Shown: positions 21,583 through 28,153 of the stretch, one piece after another
How the letters are laid out: each line of letters begins with the position of its first letter
How positions within the stretch are numbered: the stretch's first letter is position 1
Source: Schleiferiaceae bacterium
GTDB lineage: Bacteria > Bacteroidota > Bacteroidia > Flavobacteriales > Schleiferiaceae
NCBI GenBank assembly: GCA_022565875.1
Contig: JAIULY010000006.1
Span: 1-40,113, forward strand
Reading direction: 5' to 3'
DNA length: 40,113 nt
Position numbers and translations under genes: made by a program
Notes under the pieces: generated by a model
Databases searched by the model: none
What the model was told of the DNA's origin: nothing
The model's input: only the letters and a program-made list of their open reading frames with translations

Positions 21583-23475
21583 TTATGGGGTGACCTCTGT
21601 CAAAATGGCTTCGTCTAGTTTCTCAAATGTCTCAGGATTGATTACTTCCATTTTTACAGTCTCTCCATCTATATGGAAAAAAACCAAGGCGTTCTGCGTG
21701 CTGAAGTTGGAGGCGCTCTCTGTCCATGGCGTTTGTTCCTGTGCGTAATAAGGCGCACCAGCAGCACCATTGTTAATTTGCCAAATGGAACGCTTCCGGC
21801 TGAGTTTCGGTAGCGTCCAGTCTTCTGGGTAAATGGTTGTATTAGGAGTAATTAGTGTCTTAGCATAATTGTGCTCATCACCAGTCAATATGGCGACTAC
21901 CTTTTCTGATTGATTCACAATGACGTCGAGAAGCTCGTCCCGCCTTTCTAGGATACCTTTTTCTAATGGTTTCCCCCCGACATACGAACGATATTTATTA
22001 TTCCCTCGATACCACATGTCATCTGAAACATGGCCCCCGTTAGGAAAAAAGGGTGTGTGCAATGTCAAAAAAATATGCTCCACGGTAGTGTCTTTTTCTA
22101 GTTGAGAAATGGTGTTTTTAAACCATTCCAATTGGGCATCCATGATGTAAGCGTGCAGTCCACCGGATGTCTCTTCCACCAACCGTTTGTTTGGGGCATA
22201 CCAATAATTAGAATTGAGCACAACCACTGCTGTATTGCCATATTGGTAATGAAACACCGTTCTTCTGTAGGGTGGGAAGTTTTGATTGTTTGGGTCTGGG
22301 TCATAAGCGGTGTTGTCTTCTGAAACTAGTCCGTTCTCAGGGTTGACAAAGTTATTCGCAAAAACTACTTCTCCCGACTCCGTGTCATATGGGAAACGAT
22401 CCAATGATATGTAGCCACTGCCTTTTTTTGGGCGAAAACGTCGTGAGAGTGCTTCGTGATTGCCAAAGCTGATATACCACGGAATGCCAAATGCATAGGG
22501 CTCTATTGCGCGCTTCCAGTTGGCGTATTGCAAATTCATTTCATCTGGCGAAATGGAGTAGCCATTAATTAAATCTCCAGAAAACTGAACAAAAGCTACT
22601 TCTTTGTGATGCGCCAAAGCGGCAATTCGTTTCATGATGTAGGCATTTGCACCGTAAATATTGCGCTCACCGCCACCATTGCCAGCGCGCGAATCACTAG
22701 CATAAGCAAAAGAAAAGGGTACTTTTGCTCCAACAGGAGGAGCCGTTTTAAAAGTGTGACATTGTTTGTGCCTGCCAGCAGTAACACAATATTCATAGTT
22801 GGAATCCGCCTCTAGACCAGCGATTGCAACCTCGTAACGCGACTCACCAAATAGCCGATGTGTTTTTCCATTCGCGGAAAGTAGAATGGTGTCGGAGTCA
22901 CGCAGCGATGTTAGAGAAATGACAAGACTTTCAGAGGTTACATTGTGAATAAATGGCCCCTCAACAATTGTGGGAGCTACAGTGAATGGGCCTTTCCCAG
23001 AAAAGGTAACCCGACCGTCGTAAATCATCTCACCTTTTTGATTGACAATTCGGTAGCCTATGGTACCATATCCTTTTTCAGCCCAATTTACCATATCGTA
23101 CTTTTCACTAAATTCTTTTGCAATGGCAATGCTTGCTCGGTGCTTTTTGATGAGAGCTGCGCGTTTAAAGAAAACCGGTTGTGGGTGGACGGTTTCGCCG
23201 TAGGGAATTAATCCAAAGTAAATTCGCCCTTCCTCAACAGCTGGAATTTCAAAACGCAACCCGTCAGCGTCACCGGTAATGGAGCCGAGAACCCCGGTTA
23301 GGGTGTAAGCAGGCGCTTTAGTATCTTCAAGCCACTGCTCGCCATCCACCATAAAAAAAAGCCGACCTTTCTTGTCAGCTTTTAAGTTGGGGTGTAATTC
23401 GATAGGGAGGTTTTCTTGAGCTAAGAGGAGCTGCGTGAGGGCAGCAAAGAAAAACAAGAAAATAGTTGGTTTCAT
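21583..23475 (-). CDS. Exported metallophosphoesterase, purple-acid-phosphatase-like
   Basis: Secreted phosphoesterase of 630 residues with a signal peptide (MKPTIFLFFFAALTQLLLAQ). A fibronectin-III-like N-terminal domain is suggested at about 165-245 (GPFIHNVTSESL to HTFKTAPP), followed by the calcineurin-like domain: Asp261 in YASDSR, Asp301 in SGDLING, Asn339/His340 in SFGNHEA, a later LHTPFF and GDEHNYAK with metal histidines. The first block reads DSR instead of DxH or DxG, so one metal ligand may be replaced. It follows the barrel gene by 12 bases. The substrate is unknown; phosphate scavenging is only an inference. Confidence 0.85.
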   Translation of the reverse strand: MKPTIFLFFFAALTQLLLAQENLPIELHPNLKADKKGRLFFMVDGEQWLEDTKAPAYTLTGVLGSITGDADGLRFEIPAVEEGRIYFGLIPYGETVHPQPVFFKRAALIKKHRASIAIAKEFSEKYDMVNWAEKGYGTIGYRIVNQKGEMIYDGRVTFSGKGPFTVAPTIVEGPFIHNVTSESLVISLTSLRDSDTILLSANGKTHRLFGESRYEVAIAGLEADSNYEYCVTAGRHKQCHTFKTAPPVGAKVPFSFAYASDSRAGNGGGERNIYGANAYIMKRIAALAHHKEVAFVQFSGDLINGYSISPDEMNLQYANWKRAIEPYAFGIPWYISFGNHEALSRRFRPKKGSGYISLDRFPYDTESGEVVFANNFVNPENGLVSEDNTAYDPDPNNQNFPPYRRTVFHYQYGNTAVVVLNSNYWYAPNKRLVEETSGGLHAYIMDAQLEWFKNTISQLEKDTTVEHIFLTLHTPFFPNGGHVSDDMWYRGNNKYRSYVGGKPLEKGILERRDELLDVIVNQSEKVVAILTGDEHNYAKTLITPNTTIYPEDWTLPKLSRKRSIWQINNGAAGAPYYAQEQTPWTESASNFSTQNALVFFHIDGETVKMEVINPETFEKLDEAILTEVTP

Positions 23476-23487
23476 GTATGAGGGTAT

Positions 23488-24897
23488 TTAATCCAAACGA
23501 AAAGCAAGATTGAGTAGGAATGAGGTCCTAGTCCAAGTTTGAAAAGCAGGTTGTGTGATAGGCGCAAAAGGGCGCACCTCTACATCAGAAACAGCCGATG
23601 CTATTGTGCCATTGATTTCAAATTTAGCGCTTCGATAACCGATGCCTCCCGAAATTACTCGAACGATACCGTCGTCAGAAAACTGTTCGTATGGGCTGTT
23701 TGTGAAATTATAGCCACCACGCACAAAGAAGTTGTTTTTACGAGCTTCTCCGCCGATACGGATGTTGTGCACATTGGTTAATTCTTGACGAATGAATTCA
23801 TTTTCACCTCGCAATCCACCAAATTGCTCGAAACTGGTTCTGCCAAAGCGAGCAGCTCCGAAATTTGTAAAGTTGTAATCCAAGCTTAGAAAACCAAACT
23901 TATTGATGATATAAGCTGCGCTCAGCGTTGCGTTTGCAGGCGTAATTACATTGTACGTGCTAGTGATAATAGGAGAAGGGCGAAAGCTATTTAGTTGGTC
24001 AAAATACGTTTCACTTATGGCAAGTATGGACGGCGTGGTTGCCGAAGCGCCTACCCGAAATTGGTGGGTTATTTTGTAAATGATACCTGCCCGTACATTA
24101 AGACCTGTGCCTCGTTGTTCTAGAGTGCTGCGGTAAAACACTTCTTCGGGATTGTCTTGCGCGAAGCCTATTTCGCTGTGAAGCAATTCCTTATCAAATG
24201 TGTAGTTAATGAAATTTAACGTAGCACCCCAATGCAATTTATTGTTGATGGCCTCTGAATAAGTAAGCCCGATTTCACTGCGTCTTCCTCTAGTTTCAAT
24301 GGTTGTTTCTGTATCAAGTCGATCAAAATCAAGGGGGGTAGTATAATTACCGCCTCCCTGGTGCACCAGAAAGCCTGCGTTAAGGGCTTCCCACTGCGCA
24401 TCGGATAGATTATCAGGTAAAATAGCATTGCTAGTAGCTCCATCCACCCAGCTATCTATAATAGAATAATCGGCGTTTTGTGTAGTAATCCTATTCGACA
24501 TTCTGAAGTCAGCCATTCGATTTATCGTCAAGCTAAAGGCACTTTTTTTGTTATTTTTTCGGTCTTCAGATATGGATACATACCCGAAAGAAGGCAGGGA
24601 AAAGCTTGGAACATCTCTGTAATTTGGGGTCCCGAAATAAGTTCCTTCTGAAATATTGTTTTGGATGTTTGTGGTGAACCCAAACTCACTTTGTCTAAAA
24701 ACGGAGGCGCCCGCAGGGTTGACATGAATGGCGGAGTAATCATTACCTAAGGCTCCAAATGCTCCACCGGCACCTACAAATCGCGCCGAACCATGAAGCC
24801 CTGTTTGACTAAATCTGATAATGTCCTCGATTCCTTGTGCCGAAATGGTGGTGCCTATTAAGCCAGCAAAAAGGGATGTAATTATAATTTTTTTCAT
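23488..24897 (-). CDS. OmpP1/FadL-family outer membrane protein
   Basis: Outer-membrane beta-barrel of 469 residues with a signal peptide (MKKIIITSLFAGLIGTTISAQ). The N-terminus GSARFVGAGGAFGALGNDYSAIHVNPAGA is characteristic of the OmpP1/FadL/TodX family of hydrophobic-compound channels, and the sequence ends in aromatic/hydrophobic alternation (SFLLNLAFRLD) as barrel proteins do. Members take up fatty acids or hydrocarbons; the ligand here is not known. It is the first gene of a two-gene unit with the metallophosphoesterase. No convincing promoter was found in front of it. Confidence 0.85.
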   Translation of the reverse strand: MKKIIITSLFAGLIGTTISAQGIEDIIRFSQTGLHGSARFVGAGGAFGALGNDYSAIHVNPAGASVFRQSEFGFTTNIQNNISEGTYFGTPNYRDVPSFSLPSFGYVSISEDRKNNKKSAFSLTINRMADFRMSNRITTQNADYSIIDSWVDGATSNAILPDNLSDAQWEALNAGFLVHQGGGNYTTPLDFDRLDTETTIETRGRRSEIGLTYSEAINNKLHWGATLNFINYTFDKELLHSEIGFAQDNPEEVFYRSTLEQRGTGLNVRAGIIYKITHQFRVGASATTPSILAISETYFDQLNSFRPSPIITSTYNVITPANATLSAAYIINKFGFLSLDYNFTNFGAARFGRTSFEQFGGLRGENEFIRQELTNVHNIRIGGEARKNNFFVRGGYNFTNSPYEQFSDDGIVRVISGGIGYRSAKFEINGTIASAVSDVEVRPFAPITQPAFQTWTRTSFLLNLAFRLD

Positions 24898-25024: not shown

Positions 25025-26599
25025 TTATCTTCTGCCACCACCACCTCTAGAGGGTGAGGAGCTTCTACTCGGCGCTGAGCTTCTGCTCGGTGCAGCGCTT
25101 CTACTGGGTGCAGCACTTCTGCTTGGTGTAGCTGAGCGACTAGGGGCGCTGCTTCTCGCAGGAGTATAGCTTCTCGTTGGCGCAGCGCTTCTGCTCGGGG
25201 CAGCACTTCTTGAGGGTGCTGTAGATCGTGTTGGAGCAGTAGAACGCTGTGCAGGCGTGTAGCTGTTGTTTGAGCGAGCTGGCGCGGCACTTCTACCTTG
25301 TTGGTAGTTTCTATTGTTGCTCGGCGCAGTAGCTCTTGCTGGCGCAGCTTGTCTGGTGCTGTTGGCGCTTCTATTTACATTCGACTCGTAATAATTTCTC
25401 GGTTGAACCTGGGTTCTCGCGGGAGCAGTTGTACGAGCTGCTTGATTTGTAGCGCGGTTGGCTTGTGTAGCTGTACCTCTTGCAGGTGTTGTTGTTTGCG
25501 TTGGTGTGCGCGCCGCTTGCACAGCTTGGTTTCTAGATGTTTGTGTTGCTACACGACCAGCGGTATTGTTTTGCTGAGCTGTTGCTTGACGTACTCTAGA
25601 GTTTCCAATGGCACCTTGTGTGGTTCCACGGCTGTTGTTAGCTGTTGCGCCGCGGGTAGCTGCGGTATTTCTAGCGTTGGCGTTGTTGCCGCGAGTAGCC
25701 ACAGTGCCTCTGTTTGCGGTAGTATTGCCACGGGTAGTGGCCGTATTTCCGCGTGTGTTTGCTGTTTTATTTGTTCTACCAGCTTGCGTTGTTCTATTAT
25801 TAGCGTAGCGTCCTGGAAGTAAGCCAGCATTTCTGCTGTCGCGGTAGCGTCCCATGTTGGCGTTTTTGTTGTAGCGAGATGCGGGTGCATTTCCTCTGTA
25901 GGCAGTTCTACCGAAGCCACCGCGGGGGCCTGTTGCTCTTCTGTAGCCTCTAAAACCATTGTCGTAGAAACCTCCAGCCCAAAGGCCTTGTTGAAAGCCG
26001 TGGTGGTAGCCCATCATGTAGCCGCCGCCCATTCCCCAGCCGCCCATTCCCCAGCCGGGACCCCAGAATGGATCGTAGAAGCCGCCCATTCCCCAGCGAG
26101 GACCAAAGCCCATTCCGAATCCAGGTCCCCAGAATGGATCGTAGAAGCCGCCCATTCCATAACCGAAACCGAAACCGATGCCGATTCGTGGACGCATTCC
26201 CCAGCCGCCCATTCCAAAGCCTGGCCCCCAGAAAGGATCATAGAAGCCACCCATCATCATGGGATTCATGCCCCAGCCGCCGCCCATCATCATGCCGCCG
26301 CCGCCGTAATAATTGTTGATGATATTTCCTCCTCCAGCAGTTCCCATCGCTTGTTGACGGTTGATGGCAGAGTTGTCATTTGGATCATAGTAGTCAAAAT
26401 CTCCACCTTGGTTGCCTTGCATTTCGGGCTCAATAGGCGTGTTTTTCAAATTACGTGATGCCTGTGCTAGGTTCACACCGCCATAGGTGGGGTCGTGGTA
26501 AATACCATCATCGTAATAATTGTTGACTACACGGTTGCTTGTGGAGCAGCTTATCGCGAAAGCTCCTGCAACTAAGATTAAAAGAATTTGACGTTTCAT
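25025..26599 (-). CDS. Low-complexity lipoprotein with aromatic/Gly repeats and basic Ser/Arg tail
   Basis: Predicted lipoprotein of 524 residues with a lipobox ending at Cys18 (AFAISC). Residues 19-100 are moderately complex and contain two NNYY motifs. Residues 100-205 are Gly/Met/Trp/Phe-rich with three copies of GGFYDPFWGPG at 117-127, 150-160 and 172-182 (spacing 33 and 22, both multiples of 11). Residues 240-410 are rich in Asn, Thr, Arg and Ala with repeated TRGN. Residues 410-520 are a Ser/Arg/Ala/Pro tail built from APSRSAAPSRS units, ending GGGGRR. After residue 260 almost no acidic residues occur. It probably sits on the outer membrane with a disordered, positively charged tail. 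I recognise no defined function; low-complexity proteins of this kind occur in Flavobacteriales. Confidence 0.8.
   Translation of the reverse strand: MKRQILLILVAGAFAISCSTSNRVVNNYYDDGIYHDPTYGGVNLAQASRNLKNTPIEPEMQGNQGGDFDYYDPNDNSAINRQQAMGTAGGGNIINNYYGGGGMMMGGGWGMNPMMMGGFYDPFWGPGFGMGGWGMRPRIGIGFGFGYGMGGFYDPFWGPGFGMGFGPRWGMGGFYDPFWGPGWGMGGWGMGGGYMMGYHHGFQQGLWAGGFYDNGFRGYRRATGPRGGFGRTAYRGNAPASRYNKNANMGRYRDSRNAGLLPGRYANNRTTQAGRTNKTANTRGNTATTRGNTTANRGTVATRGNNANARNTAATRGATANNSRGTTQGAIGNSRVRQATAQQNNTAGRVATQTSRNQAVQAARTPTQTTTPARGTATQANRATNQAARTTAPARTQVQPRNYYESNVNRSANSTRQAAPARATAPSNNRNYQQGRSAAPARSNNSYTPAQRSTAPTRSTAPSRSAAPSRSAAPTRSYTPARSSAPSRSATPSRSAAPSRSAAPSRSSAPSRSSSPSRGGGGRR
26054..26251 (-). repeat. 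Three in-frame repeats encoding GGFYDPFWGPG
   Basis: Near-identical segments at 26219-26251, 26120-26152 and 26054-26086 encode the same 11 residues inside the lipoprotein gene. The similarity extends into neighbouring GMGGWGM codons. Offsets of 99 and 66 bases are multiples of 33, pointing to in-frame duplication. Confidence 0.9.
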
Positions 26600-26626: not shown

Positions 26627-26668
26627 TAGCTTTGCAGCTTACTAAATACAATATTCGTACCAAAGATA
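26627..26668. promoter_or_regulatory. Facing -7 elements for proS (+) and the lipoprotein (-)
   Basis: TAGCTTTG at 26627-26634 (+) and TATCTTTG on the minus strand at 26661-26668 both fit TAnnTTTG. Predicted starts near 26641 (+) and 26654 (-) mean the two leaders overlap antisense for roughly 14 bases. No TTG lies at a good distance for either. Confidence 0.4.
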
Positions 26669-26677
26669 CATTTCTTC

Positions 26678-28153
26678 ATGGCAAAACATCTTACAACTCG
26701 AAAACAGGACTATTCCAAGTGGTATAACGAACTCGTAGTTAAAGCAGATCTAGCTCAAAACTCGGGAGTTAGGGGCTCAATGGTCATCAAACCTTATGGC
26801 TATGCCATCTGGGAAAAACTACAGCAAGAACTCGATCGTCGCTTCAAAGAAACGGGACATGAAAATGCTTACTTCCCACTATTTATACCCAAGTCTTACT
26901 TCAACAAAGAAGCATCGCACGTAGAGGGCTTTGCCAAGGAATGTGCCGTTGTGACACATTACCGATTAAAGAACGATCCAGTTAGCAAAGATATAATTGT
27001 TGATCCAGATGCAAAACTAGAAGAAGAATTAATTGTGCGCCCAACCTCGGAAACGATTATTTGGGATACCTATCGCGATTGGATTCAATCGTACAGAGAT
27101 CTGCCTATCTTGGTCAATCAGTGGGCAAATGTGGTGCGTTGGGAAATGCGTACTCGGCTGTTTTTGAGGACTTCGGAGTTCCTGTGGCAAGAAGGTCATA
27201 CCGCGCATGCTACCGAGCAAGAGGCCATTGAAGAGGCTGAGCAAATGATGAATGTTTATGCTGATTTTGCGGAAAAATTTATGGCAATCCCCGTAATTAA
27301 AGGGGTTAAATCGGTAAATGAACGCTTTGCAGGTGCCATTGAAACGTATTGTATCGAGGCATTAATGCAAGATGGCAAAGCATTGCAGGCTGGTACTTCA
27401 CATTTTTTGGGACAAAATTTTGCCAAGGCCTTCGATGTGAAATTTCAAGATCAAGACGGCAAGGTAAAGCACGTTTGGGCTACCTCATGGGGGGTTTCCA
27501 CACGATTGATGGGCGCTTTGGTTATGACCCACTCCGATGATAATGGTCTCGTATTACCTCCTAATCTCGCTCCTATCCAAGTGGTGATAGTACCTATATA
27601 TAAAGGTATGGAAGAATTGGAGCGCGTTTCGGTGGTCGCCAATGAAATTGTAGCGGAATTGCGTGCATTGGGGATTTCTGTGAAGTTTGACAATAGGGAT
27701 ACCTACAAACCTGGTTGGAAATTCAATGAATACGAACTCAAAGGTGTGCCCATTCGCATTGCTATAGGACCAAGAGATTTGGAAAAAGGCGTTGTGGAAG
27801 TGGCCCGAAGGGATACACTGGAAAAAGAATCGCTTGCTACACAAGGTTTAGGCGGGAAAATTAAAAACCTACTAACCCAAATGCAGCAGAATTTGTATCA
27901 AAAAGCCCTTGACTTTAGGGAAGAAAATACGCATCGCGCCGATTCTTGGGAGGAATTTGTGGATATCATCGAAAACAAAGCAGGGTTTGTTTATGCACAT
28001 TGGGATGGTACGCCTGAAACCGAGGAAGAAATCAAGACCAAGACTAAAGCAACCATACGCTGCATTCCTTTAGATGCAAAAAAAGAGATTGGCAAGTGTA
28101 TTCTAACTGGTAAGCCATCAGAAAGACGTGTTGTTTTTGCTAGAGCCTACTAG
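26678..28153 (+). CDS. proS: Prolyl-tRNA synthetase, archaeal/eukaryote-like type
   Basis: Class II synthetase charging tRNA-Pro. The 491-residue protein is the short form without the bacterial INS editing insertion. Class II motif 2 is visible as [31 protein letters not shown], motif 3 in [10 protein letters not shown], with the proline-site TSE at about 120 (RPTSETIIW). The anticodon-binding domain starts at about 295 (QVVIVPIYK), followed by a C-terminal domain ending in VVFARAY, as in archaeal-type ProRS with its terminal Tyr. The ATG at 26678 gives the usual start. Confidence 0.96.

Follow-up and report, generated by a model that had tools for sequence, protein, structure and literature searches.

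A predicted disordered, Arg-rich lipoprotein encoded beside a FadL-type outer-membrane barrel across class Bacteroidia

A lipoprotein gene on the minus strand of the window (the whole 40,113-nt stretch analysed here: Schleiferiaceae bacterium, GenBank assembly GCA_022565875.1, contig JAIULY010000006.1, positions 1 to 40,113) apparently represents a class-wide, unnamed family rather than a lineage oddity, and it is paired with the gene of a FadL-type outer-membrane barrel that directly follows it. This pairing is well supported; the linkage of the two genes, their joint absence, the selection on the lipoprotein and its composition are computed results. A two-gene envelope module is the most economical reading. 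The features of the locus, in window coordinates, are:

25025..26599 (−), lipoprotein coding sequence, 524 aa with an ATG start, from the open reading frame and its homologues
26546..26599 (−), signal peptide and lipobox, residues 1–18; Cys18 is invariant in alignments A2 and A3, and the structural model has a helix at residues 2–19
26489..26518 (−), conserved acidic/aromatic motif YYDDGIYHDP, residues 28–37; D31, G32 and Y34 are invariant in 32 (A2) and 31 (A3) sequences
26375..26395 (−), second conserved motif DYYDPND, residues 69–75; D69 and Y70 occur in at least 90% of A2
25970..26314 (−), aromatic/glycine zone, residues 96–210, from composition, alignment and motif enrichment
26219..26245 (−), FYDPFWGPG copy 1, residues 119–127, from repeat positions in protein and DNA
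26120..26146 (−), FYDPFWGPG copy 2, residues 152–160, from the same positions
26054..26080 (−), FYDPFWGPG copy 3, residues 174–182, from the same positions
25028..25813 (−), Arg-rich, nearly acid-free tail, residues 263–524, from composition, with P[ST]RS repeats beginning around residue 431
25028..25033 (−), C-terminal Arg-Arg, residues 523–524; of 49 homologues, 40 end in Arg and 3 in Lys
26661..26668 (−), TATCTTTG, which fits the −7 element of Bacteroidetes (TAnnTTTG) and lies 69 nt upstream of the ATG, from a count over upstream regions
23488..24897 (−), FadL-type outer-membrane barrel, the downstream partner; profile matches to TbuX, FadL, TodX and PorV, Foldseek matches to FadL and BamG
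26678..28153 (+), proS, the divergent neighbour (TIGR00408, E 5e-169)

An earlier note on this DNA had described a single lipidated cysteine followed by three low-complexity zones and an acid-poor tail, together making up a large positive, disordered extension. That observation is confirmed, with disorder as a prediction. The lipobox ends at Cys18, and composition separates an aromatic/glycine zone (residues 96–210; Gly 39%, Trp/Tyr/Phe 25%) from an Ala/Thr/Asn/Arg zone (residues 263–430) and a Ser/Ala/Arg/Pro zone (residues 431–524), the APSRS tail, with nine P[ST]RS repeats. From residue 260 onward there are 41 basic residues versus one acidic residue (E405), and the mature protein, with 56 Arg and 3 Lys, has a net charge of +44. 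The 11-residue register proposed for the repeats holds in part: copies of FYDPFWGPG begin at residues 119, 152 and 174, and the spacings of 33 and 22 make the register real as multiples of 11, but there is no tandem 11-mer array. In the DNA, the repeat consists of three copies of a 60-nt block at intervals of 66 and 99 nt; Tandem Repeats Finder reported no 33-nt array in the lipoprotein gene. The O-glycosylation motif D[ST][AILVMT] is absent from the window lipoprotein. Upstream of the gene, TAnnTTTG is the consensus of the Bacteroidetes −7 element, and sites of this type occur in 20 of 51 upstream regions, compared with 4.8 expected from shuffles.

AlphaFold, run with 16 sequences, predicted only the signal-peptide helix and gave pLDDT below 50 for 475 of the 524 residues, which, with so shallow an alignment, is consistent with disorder rather than proof of it. 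Searches for relatives of solved structure returned only compositional matches, such as a CWF21 protein and a feline leukemia virus receptor tail. Pfam and NCBIfam models gave no match to the lipoprotein at E values up to 1; the conserved part is largely composition rather than sequence, so family libraries miss it. Likewise, no function or family name was found for it, in agreement with the earlier note, and a literature search of open-licence papers, which extended to disordered, Arg-rich Bacteroidota lipoproteins, found nothing on the locus.

A protein search among 60 relatives matched 22, all within the window's own family. As composition-biased proteins escape such searches, we used the neighbouring proS as a locator and took the DNA upstream of it from 55 relatives, giving 56 loci with the inclusion of G020, which had no proS match. 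At nearly all of these loci, a gene built to the same plan lies divergent from proS: a signal peptide, usually with the lipobox Cys, an acidic start often containing DG[IVL]Y, an aromatic/Gly middle and an Arg/Ser/Asn tail, in proteins of 263 to 592 aa. No lipoprotein gene was found at proS in G047 and G051, and in G049 the frame of the homologue looks damaged. The homologue in the single-contig genome G003 (L078) has one in-frame TGA that splits the N-terminal half (224 aa) from the tail frame (220 aa).

Among order-level loci, the gap between the lipoprotein and barrel genes is at most 100 nt in 43 of 44, with eight start/stop overlaps, so that the linkage looks like that of an operon. Named genomes were scanned with the barrel of Flavobacterium limi, a relative placed in the window's own order, Flavobacteriales; this yielded 53 Flavobacterium/Bizionia loci, all 53 of which have the order proS, lipoprotein, barrel. 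The conserved context by proS and an OmpP1-like gene raised by the earlier note is supported. We also searched 197 genomes of class Bacteroidia with a profile built only from the N-terminal 95 residues, blind to position and to the tail, leaving out weak matches (E above about 1e-5) because a signal peptide alone can produce such scores. Of the 66 confident matches, 63 are immediately followed by the barrel gene on the same strand, and in the remaining three the barrel lies on another contig; proS adjoins the lipoprotein gene in all 20 class-wide loci that were fetched. The two genes are also absent together: three genomes (G047, G051 and G097) have neither the lipoprotein gene at proS nor, in the whole genome, any match to the barrel. 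Across the class, the barrel is missing from 16 of the 197 genomes. All seven sampled members of family f49 (G127, G164, G196, G223, G248, G271 and G292) are without it, which suggests a family-wide loss. The locus extends beyond Bacteroidia in at least one genome, G062, which keeps the order proS, lipoprotein-like gene, barrel. Tyr/Arg-rich lipoprotein-like genes ('GCYTQLAATERVYYEE') were seen upstream of proS in four genomes outside the class (G062, G067, G106 and G114; L197–L200). On the far side of the barrel, the next gene in the window (21583–23475, minus strand) encodes a metallophosphatase; the same place in many relatives is taken by a protein containing 'SGRIADIAV' that looks BNR/sortilin-like by eye.

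In the 32 lipoproteins of alignment A2, the Cys, Asp31, Gly32 and Tyr34 are invariant and a terminal Arg occurs in at least 90%; across 49 order-level homologues, 43 end in Arg or Lys. The segment conserved family-wide near the Cys is YDDGIYYDP; it and DYYDP both lie no more than about 60 residues from the Cys. In its exact form, the repeat FYDPFWGPG is a local feature of the window, and what relatives share is the wider motif [YFW][DN]P[FWY], which occurs 95 times in the 49 homologues versus 5.9 times after shuffling of the middle zone (300 shuffles, maximum 14); judged from these sequences, FYDPFWGPG is the window's amplified form of that motif. The strict lack of acid is local too, since most relatives' tails contain acidic residues: the family median for the C-terminal half is 4%, and the window protein is the second lowest of 49. 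The order of acidic, aromatic/Gly and Arg-rich zones is found in 37 of 49 homologues versus 10.5 in shuffles. Arg is preferred over Lys, with R/(R+K) of 0.85 in the lipoprotein versus 0.65 in the barrel of the same genome (p 1.7e-11), so the preference is no mutation bias. In Flavobacterium, the median dN/dS values of 0.09 for the N-terminal part, 0.10 for the aromatic zone and 0.18 for the tail indicate that all three zones are kept by purifying selection.

The barrel belongs with the FadL, TodX and TbuX channels by both profile and fold, and it contains an invariant NPA. Its model has a pLDDT of 67 and supports the fold only. Scores against the NCBIfam models for PorV (32.7 bits, cut-off 90) and PorQ (21.5 bits, cut-off 220) lie below the cut-offs.

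The signal peptide, lipobox and invariant Cys identify the window protein as a bacterial lipoprotein, a signal peptidase II substrate; it would lie at the outer membrane. Acidic export signals such as K-(D/E)2, SDDDD and SDDFE send Bacteroidetes lipoproteins to the cell surface (PMC5080379). Taking as the test two acidic residues at positions +2 to +6 after the Cys, a rule derived in few species that may fail in some lineages, we found that all 46 Cys-bearing members at order level lack the signal; the window protein has STSNR at these positions and so lacks the hallmark of a Bacteroidota surface lipoprotein. Without the signal, a lipoprotein is expected by default to be anchored in the outer membrane facing the periplasm, and the arm more likely faces the periplasm than the outside. 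A signal peptide without a lipidated Cys is found in 3 of the 49 order-level members and, outside the order, in G075 and G105, so the lipid anchor is not essential everywhere; such homologues are probably soluble or held by contacts alone. The lipobox Cys is apparently missing in G042, G048, G050, G055, G075 and G105 (L109, L105, L083, L110, L183 and L186, respectively).

Our preferred reading, held tentatively as one that could well be right, is that the lipoprotein is the lipid-anchored partner of the adjoining FadL-type barrel and lays a disordered, polycationic arm on an anionic envelope polymer. The protein would sit in the inner leaflet of the outer membrane, and its conserved N-terminal segment may dock on the barrel from the periplasmic side, or on the machinery that assembles it; linkage to one gene is not proof of binding, and the barrel is a predicted partner. 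Counting against the reading, some Bacteroidia have no barrel, a few homologues have no lipidated Cys, and acidic residues occur in most relatives' tails. The aromatic/Gly zone could self-associate weakly through Tyr/Trp–Arg contacts, and the Arg tail, to judge by its charge, might bind an anionic envelope polymer, either peptidoglycan or LPS phosphates. The pair would then become a non-covalent, multivalent tether or clustering arm. A broader proposal, which we regard as speculative and unlikely as it stands, is that Bacteroidota in general pair such a disordered, lipid-anchored Arg/aromatic 'sticker' arm with a FadL-type barrel of its own, and that it serves as a non-covalent link, or a condensate layer, joining outer membrane and cell wall; this would be an envelope element of a new kind. 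Were the arm indeed to bind the cell wall or condense under the outer membrane, it would open the question of how Bacteroidota organize their outer membrane, in which very large protein complexes abound. Apart from any such role, a barrel–lipoprotein pair is found at one chromosomal place class-wide, including in Flavobacterium, apparently without a name, a curated family or a function.

Other accounts place the arm or its purpose elsewhere. The earlier note's interpretation is supported as regards the lipidated Cys, the three zones, the polycationic and apparently disordered extension and the gene context; on function, the note took the composition to be of a kind that drives condensation or binding to nucleic acid or polysaccharide, and it raised biofilm or matrix formation. 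An outward-facing adhesive or matrix protein, binding eDNA, polysaccharide or neighbours' LPS, would fit the composition, and polycationic, disordered, polyanion-binding lipoproteins do exist at bacterial surfaces, as with the Arg-rich heparin-binding region of NHBA (PMC6104945). That all 46 Cys-bearing members lack an acidic signal at +2 to +6 makes this role less likely, however, and conservation across class Bacteroidia with low dN/dS is unlike that of a variable surface antigen; we consider it unlikely. A condensate or gel scaffold beneath the outer membrane, in which Tyr/Trp/Gly stickers and Arg-rich stretches self-associate in a FUS-like grammar and concentrate the barrel or clients, would agree with the conserved zone order, the use of Arg over Lys and the predicted disorder; composition by itself is no demonstration of condensation, though, and we rate this account as quite unlikely. 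The idea of an unimportant low-complexity open reading frame with drifting composition could draw on the fast divergence of the tail and the wide range of lengths, but dN/dS values of 0.09–0.18 and the conservation of start, end, place and motifs over the whole class already contradict it, through selection and synteny alike, and we give it almost no credence.

The barrel itself suggests two further assignments. The BAM complex of Bacteroidota includes an essential barrel of the FadL family, BamG (PMC12611786), and the top Foldseek match of the window barrel is the BAM barrel of B. thetaiotaomicron (9hiv_F), so the lipoprotein might be an overlooked subunit of that complex. Against this, the TM-score of the window barrel is about the same for BamG as for FadL; a profile of the barrel picks up FadL, TodX and PorV, with BamG not among its matches; and the F. 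limi barrel has no PDB sequence match at E below 1, even though an orthologue within Flavobacterium would be expected at high identity. The PDB copy searched contains the F. johnsoniae BAM complex, whose BamA (9n2d) was found there at E 0, and we therefore reject the identity of the barrel with BamG; the subunit reading as a whole is highly improbable, while an accessory contact of the pair with BAM is possible. An accessory role in the type IX secretion system, suggested by the weak similarity to PorV and by the presence of SprA in nearly all genomes, would require the pair to occur only with SprA. Yet four genomes (G061, G144, G178 and G234) keep the barrel and lack SprA, and the reverse holds in the seven of family f49, where SprA is present and the barrel missing; the pair is thus not tied to that system, and we regard the role as very unlikely.

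The preferred reading, a lipid-anchored partner of a FadL-type barrel, has partial counterparts among known systems. Classical FadL is not known to work with a dedicated lipoprotein; the window barrel, by contrast, has an adjoining lipoprotein gene. In F. johnsoniae, BamG–BamH (PDB 9N2D; PMC12611786) likewise combines a FadL-fold barrel with a lipoprotein, and the fold of the window barrel scores TM 0.54–0.57 by query length against BAM FadL-type subunits. The barrels nevertheless have no sequence match to each other, and BamH is a folded surface lipoprotein, whereas the window lipoprotein is predicted to be disordered and has no export signal. NHBA (Neisserial heparin-binding antigen) is alike in being a lipoprotein with a disordered part and an Arg-rich polyanion-binding region (PMC6104945), a likeness of features; it differs in being surface-exposed with a folded C-terminal barrel. 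FUS-like proteins, with aromatic/Gly and Arg-rich disordered regions, are similar in composition and zone order; they are eukaryotic and cytosolic or nuclear, and the resemblance implies no homology. Similar in gene arrangement, by its description, is Fjoh_4940/Fjoh_4941, a lipoprotein gene beside a FadL homologue for which a functional link has been suggested by the authors who described it (PMC12045153).
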